Assembly: GCF_000024085.1 (NCBI RefSeq)
Contig: NC_013166.1
Location: 1,674,001 to 1,738,000 of the forward strand
Reading direction: 5' to 3'
From: Kangiella koreensis DSM 16069
GTDB taxonomy: Bacteria > Pseudomonadota > Gammaproteobacteria > Enterobacterales > Kangiellaceae
Length of the DNA: 64,000 nucleotides
Below the pieces are notes generated by a model. The model ran no database searches. It had not been told where the DNA came from and worked only from the letters and a program-made list of their open reading frames with translations. Positions 14,518-24,642 of this stretch are shown piece by piece; the first letter of the stretch is position 1, and every line of letters begins with the position of its first letter. The translations under genes were made by a program, and so were the position numbers.

Positions 14518-15510
14518 GTGAGTTCAATGGTTCATCCTAAAGAGGCATTGTTTGATGCAGAAAAACCATTTCCGGTCATTCCAAGCTGCGAACATTTCGC
14601 CGGAAGTGAAAAACTAATCCGAAAAGCACTCGAAATGCAGGATACCATTGGACCCGTATTTGATATTACTTGTGACTGCGAAGATGGCGCTCAAGCCGGC
14701 AAAGAAAAAGAACATGCCACCATGATTGCCGAGGTATTGTCGAGCGATGCTAATAAGCACAAGATGGCGGGTGTTCGAATTCATGATTATCAGCACCCAC
14801 ATTGGAAAGCTGACCTTGATATTCTCGTTCCAAAGATTGGTAATATCGTAACCTACTTCACCCTGCCTAAAACAACTTGCGCTGCACACATTCAAGAAAT
14901 GGTGGATTACATTAAAAGCTTATGCAACAAGCACGGTATTGATCGTAACATTCCAGTGCACGTGTTAATCGAAACACACGGCGCTTTAAGAGAAGTTTGG
15001 GATATTGCACAAATTGATAGCGTTCAGGTTTTGGATTTTGGCATGATGGACTTTGTCAGTAGCCATCAAGGAGCGATTCCAGCCTCCTCCATGCGCAGTC
15101 CAGGCCAGTTTGATCATCCACTGCTAGCACGTGCTAAAACTGAAATGTCTGCGGCTGCATTAGCCAATGGAGTTGTTCCTTCGCATAACGTCACTCTGGA
15201 TCTTAAAAACCCCTATCAGACCTACAAAGATGCAGAACGAGCTCGTAATGAATTCGGTTTCTTGCGGATGTGGAGTATTTATCCCACTCAAATCAAATCG
15301 ATCGTTGATGCCATGAAGCCAGACTACTCGGAAGTCAATGATGCCGCTAATATTTTAATCGCTGCTCAAGATAACCACTGGGGCCCGATTCAATACGATG
15401 GTGAACTCCATGACCGCGCTACTTATCGCTATTATTGGCAGTTATTAGAACGCGCTCACCTTAGTGATTTAGCCTTACCAGATGAAGCCCAAAAGCGATT
15501 CTTTGCTTAA
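14518..15510 (+). CDS. CitE/HpcH-family CoA-ester lyase, divergently transcribed
   Basis: A 330-aa third member of the CitE-like lyases. Its start is GTG (at 14518), preceded by AAGGAG at a good distance. Motifs are 'VFDITCDCEDGAQAGKEKEH', 'MAGVRIHDYQHPHWKADLDI', 'VHVLIETHGALREVWDIA', 'VLDFGMMDFVSSHQGAI' and 'RMWSIYPTQIKSIVDAM'. It is distinct from the two CitE proteins on the minus strand and is presumably under the same control. Its likely reaction is retro-Claisen cleavage or hydrolysis of a hydroxy-dicarboxylyl-CoA. Confidence 0.83.
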   Translation: MSSMVHPKEALFDAEKPFPVIPSCEHFAGSEKLIRKALEMQDTIGPVFDITCDCEDGAQAGKEKEHATMIAEVLSSDANKHKMAGVRIHDYQHPHWKADLDILVPKIGNIVTYFTLPKTTCAAHIQEMVDYIKSLCNKHGIDRNIPVHVLIETHGALREVWDIAQIDSVQVLDFGMMDFVSSHQGAIPASSMRSPGQFDHPLLARAKTEMSAAALANGVVPSHNVTLDLKNPYQTYKDAERARNEFGFLRMWSIYPTQIKSIVDAMKPDYSEVNDAANILIAAQDNHWGPIQYDGELHDRATYRYYWQLLERAHLSDLALPDEAQKRFFA

Positions 15511-15526
15511 TGTTTCTCGAATATCA

Positions 15527-15562
15527 CACAAAAAAGTAGCCGTTTATGACTGCTTTTTTGTG
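15527..15562. terminator. Bidirectional terminator between the CitE lyase and RiPP operons
   Basis: CACAAAAAAGTAG pairs with CTGCTTTTTTGTG (one G-T pair) across a ten-base loop. A/T runs on both sides let it serve the plus-strand lyase and the minus-strand ABC gene. Confidence 0.85.
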
Positions 15563-15612
15563 TATGCCATATAAGTACTGTAACAAAAGCAATAAAAGAG
15601 TTTAATGCAATA

Positions 15613-17376
15613 TTAAGTAGAATGACTTTCTGCTAACTGATCACTCATCAAATGATAGTACGTACCTAACCTCTGCTCTCTTAAATACTCGTGAGTACCT
15701 TGTTGAACGATTTTGCCATTTTCAAGTACGATTACTCGATCTGCTTTCGAGATTGTTGAGTATCGATGCGCAATCATAATGGTTGTTCGACCTTGCATCA
15801 AATTGTCTAAAGCTTGTTGAACTTTTAGTTCACTAAAAGAGTCCAGCGCACTTGTAGCTTCGTCCAGTATCAGTATTTTAGGATTACGTAGCAATGCTCT
15901 AGCAATAGCTATTCGTTGCTTTTGCCCTCCGGACAACTGTACACCTCGCTCACCAACAATGGTCTTATATCCATCAGGAAAGCCTTCTATGAAGTCATCA
16001 GCAAAAGCTTGCTTAGCCACCCTTTTTACATCATCTAGAACTGCTTCAGCATTTGCTCCGTAGGCTATATTATCAAAAATACTACCATCAAATAATGTAG
16101 GATCTTGCTCAACAATGGCAGAGTGTTTTCGAATATATTCTTTCGATAGCTCTAAGCTCGACCTTGAATCAAAGTACAACTCTCCTTCCTGGGGCTTGTA
16201 AAAACCCAAAACTAATCTCGCAACCGTTGACTTTCCCGCCCCCGAAGCCCCAATTAAGGCAATTTTCTCACCTGCTTTAATAGAAAGGGAAAAGTTTTGC
16301 AGAGCCTTAACCTGCCGTCTCTCAGGGTAGAAAAAAGTAACTTTATCGAACTCTAGCTTGCCAGTCAGTGGTGGGCTCTTTGTTAATTCTTTGAATAGAA
16401 CTTTGCTTATTGATGCAGAGTCGATGATTTCAAAAATTCTTTCAGTAGAACCTATCGATCTTTGCCAATTCTGCCAAAAGTCACTCAAAGCGCCTGCCGA
16501 AGTAGCGACCATCGCAGAATAGATAACAAAACTGGTTAATTCACCTATAGTAAGATTATCGTCCATTATCTGTAACGCACCTAACCACAAGGTAGCTAAT
16601 AAAACTAAATAGATAACTAAAGAAGCTGCCCCTTGAAATGAAGCAACAAACCGAGCACAGCTTTTGGAGACATCTAATGCTTTATGAATCGACTCATCGT
16701 AGTGTCTCAATGCTGTTTCTTGTCGATTAAAGGCTTGCACCAATCTGATGTTGGAAAAATTTTCATGAGCCACTTTACCTGCCTTGGCGTGGCATTCTTG
16801 TATTTGTTTTGAGCGTTTCTGAATATTGCTGCCAACCCACTTTGCGAAATACATAGTCACAGGCAAGAAGACAAGTAAAATCAAACTGAGCATTGGTGAT
16901 GTAATCAACAACAAGACCAATCCACCGAGGCAGACCAGAAAGGCACGCAAAGCCACGGCCAATCCTGTAGTTAATGTGTCGTGTAGAACCTCCACATCGG
17001 ATGATAGCCGATTGGTTATCTCACCGATATTATGTCTATCATAAAAAGAAATACCTTTACCAACCAAGACCTGGTGCAATCTTGTTCTAATCTTTGCTAC
17101 AACCATATAACCAGTAGTCTCAAAAAAGTAATATCTAAGCGCAGTTGAGATAGCATAAATAGTTAGCAAAATAATCATGCCAATAGCCAGCAACGTGTAA
17201 TTATGTTGGGGATCACCATCAGCCAGCGAGTCTATAAAGTCCGAAACGGCAACTGGGTACAACAGTTGAATACCCACCGTGATAATCATAAACAGCAAAC
17301 CTAATAACAATCTCTTAACAAATGGCCTTACTAAAGACAATCTTTTTAGGTGAGGGTTTTTCTTTTTGCTACTCAT
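15613..17376 (-). CDS. ABC exporter, fused membrane-ATPase, of the RiPP operon
   Basis: A 587-aa half-transporter. Six membrane segments (about residues 20-310) are followed by a nucleotide-binding domain with Walker A 'GASGAGKST', signature 'LSGGQ' and Walker B 'ILILDEATSALD', then the H-loop 'IAHR'. It is of the BmrA/MsbA/TAP-like type. There is no N-terminal C39 peptidase domain, because the protein opens directly with the membrane domain. If it exports the modified peptide, leader removal must be done by another protein, most simply the Clp-fold protease of the operon. Its ATG overlaps the stop of the thioredoxin-like gene by four bases (ATGA), implying coupling. It is the last gene of the operon. 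Confidence 0.9.
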   Translation of the reverse strand: MSSKKKNPHLKRLSLVRPFVKRLLLGLLFMIITVGIQLLYPVAVSDFIDSLADGDPQHNYTLLAIGMIILLTIYAISTALRYYFFETTGYMVVAKIRTRLHQVLVGKGISFYDRHNIGEITNRLSSDVEVLHDTLTTGLAVALRAFLVCLGGLVLLLITSPMLSLILLVFLPVTMYFAKWVGSNIQKRSKQIQECHAKAGKVAHENFSNIRLVQAFNRQETALRHYDESIHKALDVSKSCARFVASFQGAASLVIYLVLLATLWLGALQIMDDNLTIGELTSFVIYSAMVATSAGALSDFWQNWQRSIGSTERIFEIIDSASISKVLFKELTKSPPLTGKLEFDKVTFFYPERRQVKALQNFSLSIKAGEKIALIGASGAGKSTVARLVLGFYKPQEGELYFDSRSSLELSKEYIRKHSAIVEQDPTLFDGSIFDNIAYGANAEAVLDDVKRVAKQAFADDFIEGFPDGYKTIVGERGVQLSGGQKQRIAIARALLRNPKILILDEATSALDSFSELKVQQALDNLMQGRTTIMIAHRYSTISKADRVIVLENGKIVQQGTHEYLREQRLGTYYHLMSDQLAESHST

Positions 17377-17936
17377 GCAACGGCCTCGCTATCACGACCA
17401 CCTTTGACTTGCTCGGCAAAGCTTTCCCAATCAGAATCACCTATAAATCCATAAGCTTGAAGCTTTGCCTCGTGACTAATAAAAAGGTAAAAAGGCGAAG
17501 CAAAAGTTGGATTAAGTTTCTTATAGTTTTTATTACTGACAAACCAAACGTTATCAAGCAAGATAGAGTTATTTAAAAAGCTCTTCATTATTACTGTTGA
17601 CTCTTTACTTATTATTGAGATGCAAATACCTAACTCGCGCATTAATGGATGTAAATACTCAATTTGTGGTATCTTTTCCTGGCATTTTGGGCATTGACTA
17701 GAAACAAATAATAAAACCGATGGAGCCCCAGTAATATTAAGTCCCTCATAATCGTTGCTTGATATTCGTCTTCCTTTAATATCTGGGACTTTTTCTCCGA
17801 TATGAACCGGAGAAATCTCATCTATTGTAGATGAACTATCACGGATTATTTTTAATAAATTTAGCGTTAACTTAAAGTTTATTGCTGAAATCAAACATAA
17901 AATAACCAATACTATGTATACCAACTCCATACCCAT
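17373..17936 (-). CDS. MauD/TlpA-like membrane-anchored thioredoxin-fold protein (CPKC)
   Basis: A 187-aa protein with one N-terminal membrane segment (about residues 4-25) and an extracytoplasmic thioredoxin-like domain. The active-site motif is CPKC in 'LFVSSQCPKCQEKIPQIEYL' (Cys near 107 and 110). The C-terminal strand region 'TFASPFYLFIS' supplies the usual cis-Pro position. It resembles MauD, the disulfide-handling protein for methylamine dehydrogenase maturation, and it follows a MauE-like gene. No methylamine dehydrogenase genes are present, so the pair has been recruited into the RiPP operon, plausibly to form or isomerise the disulfide of the two-cysteine peptide. It lies 10 bases after the MauE-like gene. 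The start could also be the ATG two codons later. Confidence 0.82.
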   Translation of the reverse strand: MGMELVYIVLVILCLISAINFKLTLNLLKIIRDSSSTIDEISPVHIGEKVPDIKGRRISSNDYEGLNITGAPSVLLFVSSQCPKCQEKIPQIEYLHPLMRELGICISIISKESTVIMKSFLNNSILLDNVWFVSNKNYKKLNPTFASPFYLFISHEAKLQAYGFIGDSDWESFAEQVKGGRDSEAVA

Positions 17937-17946
17937 TTACATCACC

Positions 17947-18453
17947 CTATGATTTAAGAATCATCATTACATCATCCAAATTGATCAAAAATATGCTTAA
18001 AAGCAACCCGGTAGAGGCCAGTAACAAGTGCCCAGAAAGATCAATAGACTCGTTTAAACTACCAGTTGTAATATACAGACCTGTAGAAACGATTATTAGT
18101 CCATTTCTGAAGAAGTCCCAAACAGAAACGGGGCGTTCACTCTTGCCAAAACAGTTGCACCGAATGCTACTATCCCTTCTCCAAAATGACATAACAAACA
18201 AGGTGATAACAACGAATAGCACTAAAGTGATAAGCATAACCCAATATGTAAAGAGATTAGCAAAAAGGAGTATAGATAAAGTTGCTTCAACAGTAATAAG
18301 CGAAATCGAAGAAATACTTGACTGTCTACCAGTGAAATCAAACGAAGAAACCAAGTTCATTTTAAAATCACCATAATTGAACCCCTTTGCCCATGCAGCC
18401 CCAAATAGAATAAAACCAATCAACCATCGAATAATTTCGCTTATTAGTTCCAT
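17947..18453 (-). CDS. MauE/DoxX-like integral membrane protein
   Basis: A 168-aa protein with four to five hydrophobic segments (about 5-22, 45-70, 72-95, 110-130, 140-160) and the family's characteristic CxCFG signature (RCNCFGKSE, after residue 95). MauE-type proteins, like VKOR/DsbB-type partners, sit next to thioredoxin-like MauD proteins and are thought to support periplasmic disulfide formation. Its start codon shares one base with the protease stop (TAATG), so it is translationally coupled. Within a RiPP operon the simplest reading is an oxidative folding partner for the CPKC protein. This is inference. Confidence 0.78.
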   Translation of the reverse strand: MELISEIIRWLIGFILFGAAWAKGFNYGDFKMNLVSSFDFTGRQSSISSISLITVEATLSILLFANLFTYWVMLITLVLFVVITLFVMSFWRRDSSIRCNCFGKSERPVSVWDFFRNGLIIVSTGLYITTGSLNESIDLSGHLLLASTGLLLSIFLINLDDVMMILKS

Positions 18454-19334
18454 TACTCATTAACCTCTAACTGATTCCATCTAGGAGCTAAACCATCAGG
18501 CTGGTTATAGCGGACATAACCTTTCTCACTACTGAGAATCATAGTATCGACCCAAGGATCATCGACTGAATGACGCAATGAACCTCCCACAGTGGCTTGT
18601 ATTTCTTCCGAAATCACCCAAGCAAGGTCTTCCACCTCTCCATCACGAATGATGTTTAAACCCATATCGTACATTTCATCGGTAGTTATCGCATAATGAT
18701 GTGAATTGTATCCATGCATAAGTTTACCAATCACTTTTTTCCTGATACCCACATTAGTTAGCTGATTACTTAATAACTCATCAGCAATTTGTTCTGCTTC
18801 TTGTGTGATGCGATAGAATGCTGTGAGGGTAGGAGGAAAAATACTATTACATAACAAACTCACCTGCTCTTCATTAGCTTTGGCAGCATCTACTCCAAAC
18901 CATCTTTCACACATATCGCCAAATTGCTTAATGTCTAAAAAAGATAATGTTGACTCACCTCCACCACCTGATGAACCACTTAAGTGAGGATCTATCGGTG
19001 AAAAGATCGCCATGTCACCACTGATAATTTCATCAGCAGACAATGCAAGTATAGTTCCGGATGACTCACAGTAATACGGAACTATAAAGCTTAATTTATC
19101 TGTAAACTTACGAAGCAATAAGGCTATTCTTCTTGCAGCATTGACAACCCCGCCACGAGAGTGAATCAAAACATCAAGGTGCTTAACATGTCCTATTAAC
19201 TTTAAATGCGAATAAAGCTTAGGAATTATCTCTTGATCGAGATTGGAACATGCCAGCACCAGCAGTTTACTCTGTCTAATAGTTTCAATTCTTTTCATCT
19301 GAGAAATTGAGTTAAAGTATTTTAAGTTCGACAT
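18453..19334 (-). CDS. Clp-fold serine protease of the SDH proteinase family, RiPP operon
   Basis: A 293-aa ClpP/crotonase-fold protein matching the 'serine dehydrogenase proteinase' family. The conserved core is 'LIHSRGGVVNAARRIALLLR' (about 57-76), the nucleophile segment 'ESSGTILALSADEIISGD' (Ser91/Ser92, corresponding to the SAGT of the family) and 'AIFSPIDPHLSG' (109-120). It lacks a signal peptide, so it is cytoplasmic or membrane-associated. Its start lies inside the end of the ATP-grasp gene (13-base overlap), implying tight co-expression. Because the exporter has no peptidase domain, it is the best candidate for removing the precursor's leader. I know of no proven case of an SDH protease in this role. 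Confidence 0.82.
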   Translation of the reverse strand: MSNLKYFNSISQMKRIETIRQSKLLVLACSNLDQEIIPKLYSHLKLIGHVKHLDVLIHSRGGVVNAARRIALLLRKFTDKLSFIVPYYCESSGTILALSADEIISGDMAIFSPIDPHLSGSSGGGGESTLSFLDIKQFGDMCERWFGVDAAKANEEQVSLLCNSIFPPTLTAFYRITQEAEQIADELLSNQLTNVGIRKKVIGKLMHGYNSHHYAITTDEMYDMGLNIIRDGEVEDLAWVISEEIQATVGGSLRHSVDDPWVDTMILSSEKGYVRYNQPDGLAPRWNQLEVNE

Positions 19335-20326
19335 TCGACTTCTCGACTTAAAGTAGCGGCTAATTTTTCAAGAATATTAAACTCAGGGATTAGCTGTTGA
19401 ATATATAAAAAGTTTCCACTGGGATTATTCTCTAGAAATACATACTCATCATCAGGAGTGACAATAATATCCATGGCACTGTAATTTAAATCATAGCTTT
19501 TTATTAAAGACAGGCAGCGATCTTTGATGTGTTCAGGAAGCTCCGTAGCTTCATACAAAATTTCAGCAGACATATCCCTCGAATCTACCCTTGTACGCTC
19601 ATCATCTTGTGAATGAATTTTGGCTGCAAATACTGCGTCTTCCACAACGGTAACTCTTAATTCATATTTTTTTTGTATGTACTCTTGAAAGTGGCAAGGT
19701 ATTTCTCTAACAGCATCAAGATTCTCCATCATTTCTTCATCAACGATTACCGTCGACAGACCATCAGTAACTCGCTCATTATCCTCAACAGAACCACTCG
19801 CCAAGTCAGCTGTAGACAAAGTTTTAAAAATGAGGTCACTCCTAATTAACGATTTAAATTTAAGGACCTCTTCAGGGCAGTTAGTAACCAATGATGCTGG
19901 AATTTCAAAACCAAAGTTCCTCGCGCGATTCAACTGCTCTCCTTTCCAACCTGCACCTCTAAGTGCAACTGGATGACTGACCCAAAAACAATCTAAAGGA
20001 TACAGCAACCCAAAAAGTGCTTGCTCGGTTTCTTGTTTTGCAAAAGCTAATTCTTGATTTAATAGATCATTACTGATGAATGAAAATGGAGCTGGTCTTC
20101 TATTCCATACAGCTCCAACAGTATTTAAATCGATAAAGTTTCCGGAGGGAATATGCTCTATAATTACCTTTGACACTTTTCCAGTGTACTTTTGCAAAAT
20201 TTTATAATCACGAGGGAACTGGTCCAAATTGATACGAAAATATGTCTGATCTTTTTTCTGAAAAATGGGCGAGATTAAATCAGCATGAATATCCATGCTA
20301 TTGCTTATAATTAATATTGTTTTCAT
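19322..20326 (-). CDS. ATP-grasp peptide maturase, MvdD/graspetide type
   Basis: A 334-aa ATP-grasp ligase of the MvdC/MvdD-like RiPP maturases, which join Asp/Glu side chains to Ser/Thr (esters) or Lys (amides) of a precursor peptide. The N-terminal 'MKTILIISNSMDIHADLISP' and 'FRINLDQFP' segments and the 'GAVWNRRP' motif (about 71-78) are hallmarks. The Mg-ATP site is seen in 'SAMDIIV' and 'FLENNPSGNFLYIQQ' (Glu299, Asn301). The start was chosen at the ATG at 20326: everything aligned with the family begins there. The open frame extends to 20539, but that 71-codon extension has no domain and runs through a terminator hairpin and the precursor gene. Recognition of a specific leader is expected from the N-terminal domain. 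Confidence 0.9.
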   Translation of the reverse strand: MKTILIISNSMDIHADLISPIFQKKDQTYFRINLDQFPRDYKILQKYTGKVSKVIIEHIPSGNFIDLNTVGAVWNRRPAPFSFISNDLLNQELAFAKQETEQALFGLLYPLDCFWVSHPVALRGAGWKGEQLNRARNFGFEIPASLVTNCPEEVLKFKSLIRSDLIFKTLSTADLASGSVEDNERVTDGLSTVIVDEEMMENLDAVREIPCHFQEYIQKKYELRVTVVEDAVFAAKIHSQDDERTRVDSRDMSAEILYEATELPEHIKDRCLSLIKSYDLNYSAMDIIVTPDDEYVFLENNPSGNFLYIQQLIPEFNILEKLAATLSREVECRT

Positions 20327-20333
20327 AGCACTA

Positions 20334-20364
20334 GTAAAAAAGCCCTGGCCGTAGCCAAGGCTTT
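20334..20364 (-). terminator. Intrinsic terminator between precursor and maturase genes
   Basis: On the minus strand AAAGCCTTGGC and GCCAGGGCTTTT form a stem (one G-T pair) around a short TACG-type loop, followed by a run of T. It begins 15 bases after the precursor stop and ends just before the ATP-grasp start. Partial read-through would give abundant precursor mRNA and less enzyme mRNA. Confidence 0.82.
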
Positions 20365-20378
20365 CTGACACTCCGTTA

Positions 20379-20552
20379 TTAACAGAAAATTCCGTTTTCG
20401 TTACCCCAACGGTCATATCCTCGAGCCCACCAACCGGTACATCCAGCGGTAGAAACACCGTCACGAGCTTTCCATTGGTTTTCAGCTTTGGTGGCATGTG
20501 TCTTTTCTGACATTTTGAAAGCAAACAATTTAGTTTCATTTTGCTTTTTCAT
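20379..20552 (-). CDS. Candidate RiPP (graspetide-type) precursor peptide, 57 aa
   Basis: The ATG at 20552 follows an AGGAG ribosome binding site with about seven bases of spacing. The frame encodes 57 residues and stops at 20379, just before the terminator and the ATP-grasp gene. The N-terminal half is a Lys/Glu-rich leader-like segment (MKKQNETKLFAFKMSEKTHA). The C-terminal half is Gly/Trp/Cys rich: Asp31, Ser34, Thr35, Cys38, Thr39, then TGWWARGYDRWGNENGIFC with Asp47, Glu52 and terminal Cys57. Possible side-chain acceptors (Ser/Thr) and donors (Asp/Glu) suit ATP-grasp macrocyclisation, and the two Cys suit a disulfide. The frame is different from the long ORF that covers it. That this is the substrate of the neighbouring maturase is inferred from position, size and composition; the leader/core border is not known. 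Confidence 0.82.
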   Translation of the reverse strand: MKKQNETKLFAFKMSEKTHATKAENQWKARDGVSTAGCTGWWARGYDRWGNENGIFC

Positions 20553-20577
20553 TGTTTTCTCCTTTGTTTAGATTTAA

Positions 20578-20594
20578 GTATGCGGCAAGCATAC
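20578..20594 (-). other. Hairpin in the 5' UTR of the precursor gene
   Basis: GTATGC-GGCAA-GCATAC forms a 6-bp stem between the predicted transcription start and the ribosome binding site. An alternative pairing TGCGGC/GCCGCA with the sequence just upstream in the transcript is possible, so the UTR can fold in two ways. Confidence 0.4.
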
Positions 20595-20612
20595 GACCAC
20601 TCGCCGCAACTA

Positions 20613-20642
20613 ATCCTACAGTTAGAAAACAAAAAATGTCAA
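20613..20642 (-). promoter_or_regulatory. Promoter of the RiPP operon
   Basis: A minus-strand TTGACA (20642-20637), an 18-bp spacer and TAGGAT (20618-20613) form a near-consensus sigma-70 promoter about 60 bases upstream of the precursor start codon. Confidence 0.65.
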
Positions 20643-20973
20643 CAAGATATCCATAACAAATTTAATGCAAAATCGCATCGACAAAACAAGGCAAATTCGC
20701 ATTAAACATTTGTTTTTAGTTAACTAAAATTCATTATCTTGAAAGAAGCGAAACCCATAAATCATTAGATTAACTAATCGATAGAATGCTAAACATATCC
20801 GCACCCCCCCTTACTTAAGGCTCAACAAATAAGACAAACAAATAGTCTTAATAATGAGAGCTTAGCAAGAGAATTGCTGAGTTCTCAATGCAATATTGAA
20901 TCGAAAAAGAATATCGCCAACAGCCCACCAATGCAGATTTGATTTCCAACATTAAGCAGTTCCCTCATAAAAG
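20643..20973. other. AT-rich intergenic stretch without a supported gene
   Basis: Upstream of the RiPP promoter and downstream of the DUF5916 gene. It is strongly AT-rich with no convincing stem-loop terminator or conserved frame. A 27-codon hydrophobic frame right after the DUF5916 stop lacks a ribosome binding site and was not accepted. Confidence 0.5.
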
Positions 20974-23220
20974 TTAAAGCTGGAACGCGTAACTGAATTT
21001 AGAAAAGAAAGTTTTACCTGTTTTTTCAAAACGATTCACCGTATCGTCTTCAAACCCATTATCAGAATAGCCAAGATAAAATACCGTTCTGGGGTTCCAT
21101 TTGTAACCATAGAGAATCTGTCTGTTAACAATGGTTTCTTTACTAACCTGACTTGGATTTGAATAAAGTGGTGCATTAAAGTCAACGTCTGTATAGCGTA
21201 GAACTAATTTTAAATAACTATAATTATTAAACTGGTAACGTGTGTCAAAGTTAAATATATCAGCTTCAAATAACTGCCCCTGGTCAACCTTAAAATCAGT
21301 AAACTGCCACTCGCCTCTAAATGACCAATGTGCATTTACTTGCCAGCTTGCAAAAATACCGTATTCAGTAAAGTCAGCTGCTCTGGCATGACGATAATCA
21401 ACACTATCCCCCCAATCGATGTTGTAACCAATCTGCAAAGCGTTATCAGGATAAAAGGAGCCGGTATGTGAGTAGTACTGCTGAGGTAACCAGTTATTCT
21501 GATAAAACTCATAACTCACATTTCCAATAAGATTAAAGCCTGAGCGGTATTTACCGTTTGCATTCAGAGTGACAGTTGCCAGATCCCAGAGTTTTTGATC
21601 AGTATATTCCGTAACCCGCTCACCTTTTACCTGAATGCTATAGTCTGCAAAAAAGTCGCCCTGTGACTGATCGCCGAACCACCGACGCTTCACTCCAAGA
21701 GCCTGCCTGTCATAGCCTACTTGTGGCTTATAGCCAAGATCAGTTCTAAAATCTTCATCGAAGTCGATATGGGTAGCAAAGACATCCCAATTGCGCCCGT
21801 TATGCGAATAATTAATCCTATACCCTAACCCGCTACTAGTTGGTGCCAGGCCAAATTCCTGCTGCAATTGCTCAGGGTTTTCAGAGTCCGAGTACATGAT
21901 TTCATAGCGCAATTCATCCACATCCGTAATCGAATATTTACCATCAATCGCAGCAACACTATTACTGTACCCCTCTCCTCCACGGTGAGTAACCATGCCA
22001 CCAATCTGCGACTTCTCACCCAAGTCATAAGCATATCTTGCAGCAAAAACATCTGACTCCATATTGCTACCGTCAGAGTTTTGCAAAGTGGCAAAGCTAG
22101 AACCTAGACTGCCAGGAATTAAAAATGAAGTCTGTTGATCGCGGCTAGCAAGAATGCCATAAGAATGCTCATCTGACTTGCCAATATATTTAGCGCCAAA
22201 ATCTGGGTCAGCAATGGTTCTAGTATGCAACAATGTAAATGGGGTTCTAAAGTATTCAGCTCCCTCTAAAAAGAAAGGCCGCTTCTCTGAGTAAAACAAG
22301 GAAAACTGAGTGTTAACATCAAGTTGAGCGGCATCCGTTTCAACTTGCGAGAAGTCAGGATTAATAGTGGCATTAAGCATCGAACTATCGGTTATTCCCC
22401 AACGCAAATCCATTCCAGCATCCCAGTCAACACCCTCGCCCTGCCAATCAGGCTCTGTCGGTGGGTTACGCACTTCTGAATCCTGGGCCGCAATATAAGG
22501 CGTAAGTTCAAGGTTGCGACCACTTTCAATATTTTCAAATCCCTGAGCTTTATCAATTTGACAGACGTAACAATTAACATCACGCTCTTGTGGTGACAGC
22601 GCAAAGCGATGCATGAAACCACGAGGATAGAAACGAACAAAATCGATGCCCCAAGTTTTTACTCCTTTGTCATCAGGGAAGCGTAGCACTTTAAAGGGCA
22701 ATTCAATTTCAACGGTATAACCGGTTTCAGTGATTTCTGCAGCGCTATACCAAATCCCATTCCAAGACGTATCTTCTGATAAGCTTACATCATCTTCAAT
22801 ACTATCAGATTGAATGCCAACGGGATTGACAAAGAAGTTATAGGCTTTGCGACTATCATTGAAGGTATCAACCTTAAAACCTACCTGGTCATCACCCCAT
22901 GCTGTATCACGATCTCGGTAGGAATAATGCAACTTTTGCGGTTCCGGATCTTCTGCCACAAAAGCTACCAATAAGGATGAGCCATTTTGTGCAATATAAG
23001 CAGTGGTCTTAACCGGTGCTGGTGTATTTTCACCGGGACGGGTTTCATAGTCTAAAGTGACCTTTTCCGCACTGTCCCAGATCGCTTCATCAAGCTTACC
23101 GTCCAAAGTAAGCTCTCCCTCTACCTGGGGAATATTGAGCGTGTCAATTTTCTCAGCGAATACAGCAGATGAGCTGGTCGCAAGTACTATAGAGATAAAA
23201 TAGTTTTTCAACAGTTGCAT
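20974..23220 (-). CDS. DUF5916 outer-membrane protein with CBM9-like N-terminal domain
   Basis: A 748-aa exported protein. After a signal peptide (about 1-22) comes a carbohydrate-binding-family-9-like domain (about 25-225) with the typical 'VEGELTLDGKLDEAIWDSAE' opening and 'TAWGDDQVGFKVDTFNDSRK' segment. The rest is a DUF5916 region with alternating aromatic strands and a terminal aromatic residue pattern (FSYAFQL), as in outer-membrane beta-barrels. 'FSQVETDAAQLDVNTQFSLF' followed by 'SEKRPFFLEG' is a signature of this family. The function is not established. These proteins are common in marine gammaproteobacteria and Bacteroidetes. It stands alone with its own intergenic regions. Confidence 0.82.
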   Translation of the reverse strand: MQLLKNYFISIVLATSSSAVFAEKIDTLNIPQVEGELTLDGKLDEAIWDSAEKVTLDYETRPGENTPAPVKTTAYIAQNGSSLLVAFVAEDPEPQKLHYSYRDRDTAWGDDQVGFKVDTFNDSRKAYNFFVNPVGIQSDSIEDDVSLSEDTSWNGIWYSAAEITETGYTVEIELPFKVLRFPDDKGVKTWGIDFVRFYPRGFMHRFALSPQERDVNCYVCQIDKAQGFENIESGRNLELTPYIAAQDSEVRNPPTEPDWQGEGVDWDAGMDLRWGITDSSMLNATINPDFSQVETDAAQLDVNTQFSLFYSEKRPFFLEGAEYFRTPFTLLHTRTIADPDFGAKYIGKSDEHSYGILASRDQQTSFLIPGSLGSSFATLQNSDGSNMESDVFAARYAYDLGEKSQIGGMVTHRGGEGYSNSVAAIDGKYSITDVDELRYEIMYSDSENPEQLQQEFGLAPTSSGLGYRINYSHNGRNWDVFATHIDFDEDFRTDLGYKPQVGYDRQALGVKRRWFGDQSQGDFFADYSIQVKGERVTEYTDQKLWDLATVTLNANGKYRSGFNLIGNVSYEFYQNNWLPQQYYSHTGSFYPDNALQIGYNIDWGDSVDYRHARAADFTEYGIFASWQVNAHWSFRGEWQFTDFKVDQGQLFEADIFNFDTRYQFNNYSYLKLVLRYTDVDFNAPLYSNPSQVSKETIVNRQILYGYKWNPRTVFYLGYSDNGFEDDTVNRFEKTGKTFFSKFSYAFQL

Positions 23221-23403: not shown

Positions 23404-24642
23404 TTAACTTTGCTTTCTACGAGCCCAACCCAATAAGCCGAGTAAAGACAGTCCTAAAAGACTCCAACTACCACCGCCAGAGCCATAACTGGTTGATGAT
23501 GGAGGTGGATTTACCACTGTACTTTGCATATCACGCTCTGCATCTTCTAATGGCACTTCAAGAAGTGGCGAAAACTCGCTAGATACATCGTCTAATATTT
23601 CGCCCGTATTGGCATCAATCAGTTCGATACGGAAGTCATAGTAATCAGTCGGGTAGCCAGACTGCCACTCCGCATCTACAGCAATCACATCATCAGCATT
23701 GGCACCGACCACAGTAAATACAGCAGTTTCAGTCTCATACTCCCAGCTGTAGCCTGGTCTTCTTTGGTATAACACCGCATAGACATCTCTTGAACTTTGC
23801 TCAGTGTCAACATCGAAACTGATGGTAAAGTCACGGTAAAAACCATCATTATCATTGTCCGTCCAGATTTCAGTTTTAACGGTGCTCACCCAAGTATCAC
23901 TTGATACATTACCTGACTCATATGTTTTATCCTCCAGTGGCAACCAGCCAAGATCAGGGTCATCATATTCAGAAATAGTATCAACCACACCTGAGTAACC
24001 ATACTCAAACAAGTCAATCAATACCTCATAACGACCCGGAGGGAAACCGCTGTTAAGCTTAGTGGTCACCGTATAGTCATCAGAAGAATTGTCCCCATAA
24101 ATGCTAAATACATCGGTTGTGTAATAGTGCGTCCACTCGCTTTCACCATTTTTACGAATAAATAATTCAGCATAAACGTCATAATGCTCGTCATAATAAG
24201 CATCAACATCAAAGTTTACGCTTAGCTTGGTGTAATAACCATCAGCATCATAATCCTCATAAAGATAAACCGAGGCATCATAAAAATATAAGTGGTTCAG
24301 GCTCGAACTTGAGCTTTTTTCAGATGCTTCAGGAAGCTCGCTCTTTTGAGCGCGCATAACGCTACGAATTTTTTCAGGTGTCTTGTCTAATTCAAGCTGT
24401 AACTCCGCCTTTAAGTTTGTGGTCACCTGCTTTGATGAATAAGAAGATGTACGATTAACATCTACGGCCTCTTCGGCAACCTTACTTACACTACTGGAGG
24501 TTTCACTTTTACTCTCTACCACGCTGGTGGTGGCTGACTTGGTAGCAATGCGAACCTGAGGTTCATTGGCTAAAGCCTGCCCTGCAAACAAAATGTAGGA
24601 CAAAGTCACCCCAAGTGGCAGTAATGTTTTTGCTATTTTCAT
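23404..24642 (-). CDS. Choice-of-anchor H type surface protein with GlyGly-CTERM signal
   Basis: A 412-aa exported protein with a Sec signal peptide (about 1-25), a Ser/Glu/Val-rich linker, and two copies of an acidic, Tyr/Asp-rich beta domain. The first copy starts near 'HLYFYDASVYLYEDYDADGY' and the second near 'VSTVKTEIWTDNDNDGFYRD'. The C-terminus has the tripartite GlyGly-CTERM signal: Gly-rich motif (YGSGGGSW), hydrophobic helix (SLLGLSLLGLLGW) and basic end (ARRKQS). This signal is known to be processed by rhombosortase for surface delivery. The acidic repeats may bind calcium. No rhombosortase gene is in the window. Confidence 0.85.
   Translation of the reverse strand: MKIAKTLLPLGVTLSYILFAGQALANEPQVRIATKSATTSVVESKSETSSSVSKVAEEAVDVNRTSSYSSKQVTTNLKAELQLELDKTPEKIRSVMRAQKSELPEASEKSSSSSLNHLYFYDASVYLYEDYDADGYYTKLSVNFDVDAYYDEHYDVYAELFIRKNGESEWTHYYTTDVFSIYGDNSSDDYTVTTKLNSGFPPGRYEVLIDLFEYGYSGVVDTISEYDDPDLGWLPLEDKTYESGNVSSDTWVSTVKTEIWTDNDNDGFYRDFTISFDVDTEQSSRDVYAVLYQRRPGYSWEYETETAVFTVVGANADDVIAVDAEWQSGYPTDYYDFRIELIDANTGEILDDVSSEFSPLLEVPLEDAERDMQSTVVNPPPSSTSYGSGGGSWSLLGLSLLGLLGWARRKQS

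Follow-up and report, generated by a model that had tools for sequence, protein, structure and literature searches.

A candidate graspetide-type cassette inserted in the genome of Kangiella koreensis, with a conserved two-cysteine precursor

Does a 57-codon open reading frame (ORF) just ahead of an ATP-grasp ligase gene in Kangiella koreensis DSM 16069 encode the substrate of that ligase, and if so, what would the neighbouring genes make of it? The ORF lies in a 64,000-nucleotide stretch (positions 1,674,001 to 1,738,000 of contig NC_013166.1, assembly GCF_000024085.1), called the window below and used for all coordinates; the genome, of the genus Kangiella, is a single contig of 2,852,073 bases. 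A first-pass annotation, made from the letters alone, had read positions 15613 to 20642 as a graspetide-like operon with a hidden precursor gene, graspetides being ribosomally synthesised and post-translationally modified peptides (RiPPs) with side-chain ester or amide rings made by ATP-grasp enzymes. Our analysis supports that interpretation with corrections. The system holds at the level of its genes, and we assign a probability of roughly 60% to the reading that this cassette is a graspetide-type RiPP pathway that makes one ester ring inside a Cys38-Cys57 disulfide ring, the leader probably being cut by a protease of the ClpP fold.

The precursor gene and its reading frame

The 57-codon ORF (20379..20552, minus strand) is confirmed as a genuine peptide gene, whose product comprises a leader of about residues 1-37 and a predicted core of residues 38-57 with Cys at both ends. 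A single-sequence search with the 57-residue peptide returned 13 homologues besides itself (E <= 2.1e-9), and a profile built from 23 precursor sequences matched 590 proteins at E <= 1; residue counts given below out of 120 refer to the best 120 of these 590 matches (E <= 2.5e-17). Because the family search works through words of five residues and reaches only relatives with such words in common, these figures may understate the size or the diversity of the family. Its homologues in Kangiella taiwanensis, Rugamonas and Massilia are annotated 'hypothetical protein', and among the matches shown no name goes beyond 'hypothetical' or 'uncharacterized protein'. Scanning 108 of the 120 precursors (12 longer ones were excluded) against Pfam and NCBIfam found no model for the family, only weak matches to at most six members each; the best of these, PF10014 (5 of 108 precursors, E 0.00068), we judge to be chance, as we do a second match to the precursor within its own genome (E 0.267).

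We compared 16 close loci by means of the window's five proteins: the window itself, a K. taiwanensis-like genome (G001), a further genome (G049), Bowmanella, Massilia and its relatives, and Hellea. The annotation had proposed looking for a conserved peptide at the same position in related genomes, and in all 16 loci a family member does stand just upstream of the maturase gene; with the 13 homologues, this places the peptide far beyond chance.

The precursor lies, as had been described and as direct reading of the sequence bears out, in a different frame from an upstream extension of the ATP-grasp gene, whose ORF encodes 334 residues from the ATG at 20326 and 405 if extended to 20539 (19322-20539). 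One could hold that this longer protein of 405 (or 364) residues is the real product and the 57-codon ORF a meaningless accident, a view favoured by an extension that in the window stays open across 98% of the precursor, and in 3 of the 15 other loci across its whole length, and by the 364-residue length of the ATP-grasp database entry. The pattern of substitution speaks for the opposite. The K. taiwanensis-like genome has a precursor of equal length, and between it and the 174-base gene there are 12 differences at first, 6 at second and 38 at third codon positions; read in the precursor frame, 40 codons are changed and 22 of these changes are synonymous, against 2 of 43 (with 41 replacements) in the ATP-grasp frame. 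The 16 loci together contain 29 precursors, and 29 pairs of equal length drawn from them add up to 81, 72 and 341 differences at the three codon positions. Over the nearest precursor, moreover, the ATP-grasp frame is closed in 10 of the 16 loci, partly open in two (72% and 76%) and open over 98-100% in four, the window included. The synonymous-site pattern, which might have overturned the annotation, thus favours the 57-residue frame as the coding one; together with the closed frame in 10 loci it rules out the 405-residue reading, while the 13 and 590 matches rule out a chance ORF, leaving that alternative a negligible probability. What did not hold is the claim that automatic calling would lose the precursor inside one 405-residue protein: the database has a 57-residue entry (P0001) beside the 364-residue ATP-grasp entry (P0015), and to call the precursor hidden was an overstatement.

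Signals for its expression are of unequal quality. A ribosome-binding site AAAGGAG (20559..20565, minus strand, by direct reading) stands 6 bases before the precursor ATG, as claimed. The near-consensus promoter, TTGACA-18-TAGGAT (20613..20642, minus strand), has 10 of 12 consensus bases and is the best of 11 matches in a promoter scan, but shuffled sequence averages 16.6 such matches; the region is no richer than chance, and the promoter is therefore only plausible.

The cassette and its distribution

All 16 close loci contain one to three precursors (29 in total) and genes for the ATP-grasp ligase, a ClpP-like protease, a MauE protein, a MauD-like protein and an ATP-binding cassette (ABC) transporter, so that the full system of precursor, maturase, protease, redox pair and exporter that had been proposed is conserved throughout. 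Gene order and strand are the same in 15 of the 16; in Hellea the ABC gene lies upstream and the MauE and MauD genes are on the other strand.

The maturase (19322..20326, minus strand, 334 residues) is an MvdD-like ATP-grasp peptide ligase of the graspetide-synthetase type. It contains the MvdD pre-ATP-grasp domain PF21068 (50.6 bits, cut-off 27), and its nearest solved structures are CdnC (E 4.5e-40), 5ig9 (9.1e-36) and 5ig8 (7.4e-28), the latter two titled 'ATP grasp ligase', followed by AMdnB (1.6e-22). Asp248 and Arg250 of its DxR motif are invariant in the 16 loci, and the pattern [DE]xRD[MFLY] occurs in 107 of the best 120 of 371 ATP-grasp homologues.

The next gene (18453..19334, minus strand, 293 residues) encodes a protein without a strongly hydrophobic segment, predicted to be the leader peptidase (or else a resistant target). 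The annotation had rightly placed a protease here, one that occurs in all 16 loci; its type needs correcting to a ClpP-fold serine protease of the SDH type, given its match to PF01972 above the gathering cut-off and the ClpP fold of its predicted model. It falls below the cut-off of NF047768 (79 bits against 250), and phmmer found no match to it among PDB sequences at E <= 0.001. Ser91, Asp115 and His212 are invariant in the 16 loci and are assigned by position as a putative catalytic triad; judged by sequence position and secondary structure, two catalytic residues of ClpP seem to be exchanged in this protein, Asp standing at the place of the His and His at that of the Asp.

Two putative redox proteins follow. 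A MauE-family membrane protein of 168 residues (17947..18453, minus strand; PF07291 81.3 bits, cut-off 27) has four hydrophobic segments and a CxC motif at residues 99-101, both cysteines of which are invariant in 15 aligned sequences; the Hellea MauE (L045), which tblastn missed and phmmer found, was left out of this residue count. Its partner (17373..17936, minus strand, 187 residues) is a MauD/ResA-like thioredoxin-fold protein anchored by one N-terminal hydrophobic segment. It passes PF00578 (29.3 bits, cut-off 26), scores below cut-off with the MauD model TIGR02661 (21 bits against 189) and scores with a ResA model as well; the cysteines of its CPKC motif (Cys82 and Cys85) are kept in all 16 loci. 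The exporter (15613..17376, minus strand, 587 residues) joins membrane and ATPase parts in one chain, and only PF00664 and PF00005 lie above cut-off in it, with no C39 peptidase domain; it matches the MsbA_rel model TIGR02204 at E 3e-160, yet under the cut-off of that model.

The ATP-grasp loci were drawn from named genomes (10 loci), from relatives of the window (4 of 61 genomes, its own among them) and from relatives of the Massilia match (11 of 196, including two Massilia genomes already counted). Four of the ten named-genome loci belong to the 16; the six others, at 28-36% identity, have no family peptide by pattern search, a result that covers the distant loci L008-L012. One of the window's relatives with an ATP-grasp match (G023) is only 32% identical. 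Eighteen loci in all were compared, of which two with distant ATP-grasp genes (L019 and L006) were excluded from the 16, having no family precursor, protease or redox pair, although L019 has an ABC match. A class-wide sample gave a match at E <= 1e-60 in 1 of 369 genomes, the window's own, and all 78 plasmid records with an ATP-grasp match were below 60% identity. The cassette with its own precursor family occurs in scattered, distantly related proteobacteria.

Conserved residues and a proposed maturation pathway

Eight positions are identical in all 120 precursors (Phe10, Ala11, Phe12, Trp27, Val33, Ala36, Cys38 and Cys57), and a few more are shared by most (Lys8 in 119, Gly54 in 118, Gly37 in 117, Arg44 in 112). 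The leader carries the conserved pattern KLFAFK...QWK.R.GV..AG over about residues 1-37. The core, counted from Cys38, is 17-28 residues long (20 or 21 in 91 of 120), and in 119 precursors it contains two Cys and no more. The pattern C[ST]x(9-22)[DE]x[GD]xxC is likewise found in 119 of 120, with a distance of 10 to 21 from residue 39 to the conserved acid. The sole near-invariant core residues capable of cross-linking are Ser/Thr39, Asp/Glu52, Cys38 and Cys57. Judged by sequence, the cassette has the gene-level features of a graspetide system: a synthetase-type ligase, a short precursor that adjoins the ligase and is conserved with it in the 16 loci, and a conserved donor (Ser/Thr39, 119 of 120) and acceptor (Asp/Glu52, 120 of 120) in the core. 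Two Cys bracket a core that offers a single near-invariant hydroxyl and a single invariant acid, which is most simply read as one ester ring inside one disulfide ring.

The pathway that we propose would begin with unequal expression of precursor and enzymes. A hairpin between the two genes (20337..20366, minus strand) folds at -25.1 kcal/mol in the window (z -4.49, with 0 of 200 shuffles as good), and the exact 55-base gap gives z -3.25 (1 of 200 shuffles as good); the hairpin is likely an attenuator and would let precursor be made in larger amounts than enzyme, as one expects of a RiPP operon. The ligase would then bind the leader through its K-FAFK... motif, activate Asp/Glu52 as an acyl phosphate and join it to the hydroxyl of Ser/Thr39, forming one side-chain ester ring (-18 Da). 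In the cytosol, the ClpP-fold protease would probably remove the leader, most probably after Ala36-Gly37, to release a 20-residue core from Cys38 to Cys57, which the ABC transporter, having no peptidase domain, would export. Outside the cytosol the MauE/MauD-like pair would close the Cys38-Cys57 disulfide (-2 Da), and in the end product an ester ring would sit within a disulfide ring that links the first residue to the last. What the analysis shows is the gene family, the cassette, its conserved residues, the predicted protease fold and the insertion; attenuation, leader binding, ring partners, cut site, sequence of events and disulfide are inferred, and the annotation too had marked the chemistry as inference. 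The peptide might serve as a secreted antagonist, a signal or a protease inhibitor.

The assignment of the protease to leader removal has a competitor, in that no function is assigned to it by sequence: should the peptide be a protease inhibitor, this protein could be a resistant copy or a guard of the protease inhibited, and the leader would be cut by another protease. We consider this unlikely, as the protease is encoded after the maturase in all 16 loci with the three putative catalytic residues kept, the other four cassette proteins match no peptidase family, and no peptidase domain of the exporter reaches cut-off. A somewhat better chance, albeit still a poor one, goes to the idea that oxidation of the peptide is not the task of MauE and MauD, which would instead act on wrong disulfides by reduction or isomerisation, or have some other protein as their client. 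ResA-like proteins are often reductants outside the cytosol, and the score of the MauD-like protein with the ResA model would fit such a role; against this, the two genes accompany a precursor family with exactly two Cys in nearly every core, and whichever way the electrons flow, a disulfide of the peptide would still be handled.

Several observations weigh against the pathway as drawn. The leader motif Phhx(1,2)h is present in the first 30 residues of only 8 of the 120 precursors, although it is found in about half of graspetide precursors according to the main text of PMC8939145 and is hence not strictly defining. Characterised graspetide synthetases typically install several linkages (main text of PMC13097080), which makes a single ester unusual, and in the main text of PMC8939145 just two predicted clusters are limited to one. 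The cut after Gly37 is a guess from conservation, proposed because the Ala-Gly pair before Cys38 resembles the small-residue doublets that PMC8939145 describes as cleavage signs. An AlphaFold model of the precursor is uninformative (predicted local distance difference test 61.5, predicted template modelling score 0.18), and with no confidence in that model, the proximity of the predicted ring partners, or of Cys38 and Cys57, gains no structural support from it. As for the hairpin, in all 16 loci the first part of the gap that follows the last precursor has a fold of <= -18.0 kcal/mol, yet z <= -2 against the locus's own shuffles is reached in 8 of them only (median -1.79), so that it is strong in the window and unproven as a family feature; the terminator of the first-pass annotation is to that extent borne out, even though a simple terminator consensus scan did not list it.

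The chemistry of the bond itself is a further point of doubt. Most cores hold additional acids and donors (further Asp/Glu in 113 of 120, further Ser/Thr/Lys in 83), and for this reason extra rings are possible in single members; residue 31 is acidic in 106 precursors and residue 28 is Lys in 83; and one precursor of the 120 (P0217) has Cys in place of Ser/Thr39, which may point to a thioester or an altered ring partner. According to PMC13097080, certain synthetases make amides and non-native thioesters as well. A Lys28 amide, a ring through Asp/Glu31, a Cys thioester, or several rings varying between members could on these grounds be considered. We nevertheless regard such alternatives as improbable, to much the same degree as the other two just weighed, given that in the core only Ser/Thr39 and Asp/Glu52 are near-invariant as donor and acceptor, whereas residues 28 and 31 are more variable and fall within the presumed leader. 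The ester between residues 39 and 52 remains our preferred linkage.

Insertion and relation to known systems

The cassette occupies an inserted segment of about 5.4 kb (15562..20969), delimited by flank spacing in other Kangiella and by BLAST breakpoints. The flanking genes, CitE/HpcH-like on one side and DUF5916/CBM9 on the other, are present in 20 of 20 Kangiella genomes, and their matched parts lie 16-475 bases apart in 18 of the 19 others but 5.47 kb apart in the window, with the cassette between them. BLAST alignments with four empty sites break off at 15510-15561 and start again at 20970-20974. The remaining genome (G010) has its flanks 8.5 kb apart, holding an RHS-like ORF and two near-identical transposase-like ORFs, which we take to resemble transposases associated with repetitive extragenic palindromic elements; in the K. 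taiwanensis-like genome this site is empty, the cassette being found at another place of that contig (281-282 kb vs 417-421 kb). The site is thus open to insertions, and the cassette has moved. The cassette has a GC content of 38.4%, against 42.8% for the window, and an 11-base direct repeat, AATGCAATATT, is located near both ends of the insert, at 15604 and 20887. The DUF5916/CBM9 gene (20974-23220, minus strand) adjoining the insertion has two to three tandem copies in six other Kangiella genomes (G004, G011, G013, G015, G016 and G017). Farther on, 23404-24642 (minus strand) encodes a 412-residue protein with two internal repeats of about 100 residues, recognised by eye, and a Gly-rich, hydrophobic, basic C-terminal tail, presumably resembling a GlyGly-CTERM sorting signal.

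Taken as a whole, the cassette may represent an undescribed graspetide group, mobile among proteobacteria and combining a Cys-Cys ring with a nested ester, a dedicated ClpP-fold leader peptidase and a membrane oxidase pair; we advance this tentatively, at somewhat less than even odds. If true, it would be the first graspetide system with disulfide machinery of its own, and its peptidase would be the first ClpP-like enzyme of the SDH type to act as a RiPP leader protease. How leaders are removed is a poorly covered part of graspetide biology: the enzyme is called unknown in the main text of PMC8939145 (2022), no leader protease is known for graspimiditides according to PMC12291112 (2025), and NosP was reported in 2026 as the first specific microviridin leader protease (PMC13039773). 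To these the present cassette adds another candidate, whose fold is defined and looks different and whose gene is kept in all 16 close loci. PMC13097080 lists few secondary modifications of graspetides, and a disulfide would be an addition to them. The precursor would moreover make a minimal substrate, its core having a single near-invariant donor and a single invariant acceptor; the two-ring topology could be checked by mass alone, and hundreds of unnamed small proteins would gain a likely function.

Among characterised systems, microviridins and chryseoviridins (MdnC, AMdnB, CdnC) share the ATP-grasp superfamily with the ligase described here (PF21068, with the CdnC and AMdnB matches given above), as well as a short precursor upstream of the ligase and an ABC exporter in the operon; they differ from it in that the present cassette has two invariant Cys, a ClpP-fold protease and a MauE/MauD pair. 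Membership of the curated equivalog families was rejected, the ligase matching the MvdD model TIGR04184 at E 4.6e-59 but with 200 bits against a cut-off of 475, and the MvdC model with 163 bits against 425. Microviridin cores carry the motif TxKxPSD and plesiocin cores TTx(4)EE; neither occurs in any of the 120 precursors, in agreement with the annotation, which had called the core unlike both. Plesiocin, thuringinin, fuscimiditide and other graspetides are likewise made by ATP-grasp ligases.

No printed description of the cassette was found in the literature listings and main texts searched. The main texts of PMC8939145 and PMC13097080 do not mention Kangiella, Massilia, Janthinobacterium, MauE or ClpP, and the word 'disulfide' is absent from the main text of the latter. 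That survey (Carter et al. 2026) counts 43 graspetide groups, several with neighbouring proteases (more than half of group 9 with a 'serine proteinase'), and as its tables are in supplements, the group may be listed there undescribed. Conserved Cys are known in many predicted graspetide precursors and were considered for thioethers in the main text of PMC8939145.

The order seen here, Ser/Thr donor before Asp/Glu acceptor, is the hairpin-like order of fuscimiditide (PMC12291112). Characterised graspetide synthetases as a rule make several linkages (main text of PMC13097080), in contrast to the one near-invariant donor and one invariant acceptor found here between invariant Cys, and the family core points to a single ester ring with a disulfide, unlike the several rings usual in characterised graspetides. 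For microviridins, NosP is the one leader protease reported (PMC13039773). SDH-type ClpP-like proteases (PF01972, NF047768) are alike in domain and fold, while the protein here scores below the NF047768 cut-off and belongs to a RiPP cassette. A parallel for the redox pair is offered by the decRiPPter families of Streptomyces, where, according to PMC7794033, mauE, and in one family also mauD, lies in candidate RiPP clusters and is proposed to act on the precursor, MauE being speculated to form disulfides; the precursors there have at least eight Cys, as against the two that would close the ring here.

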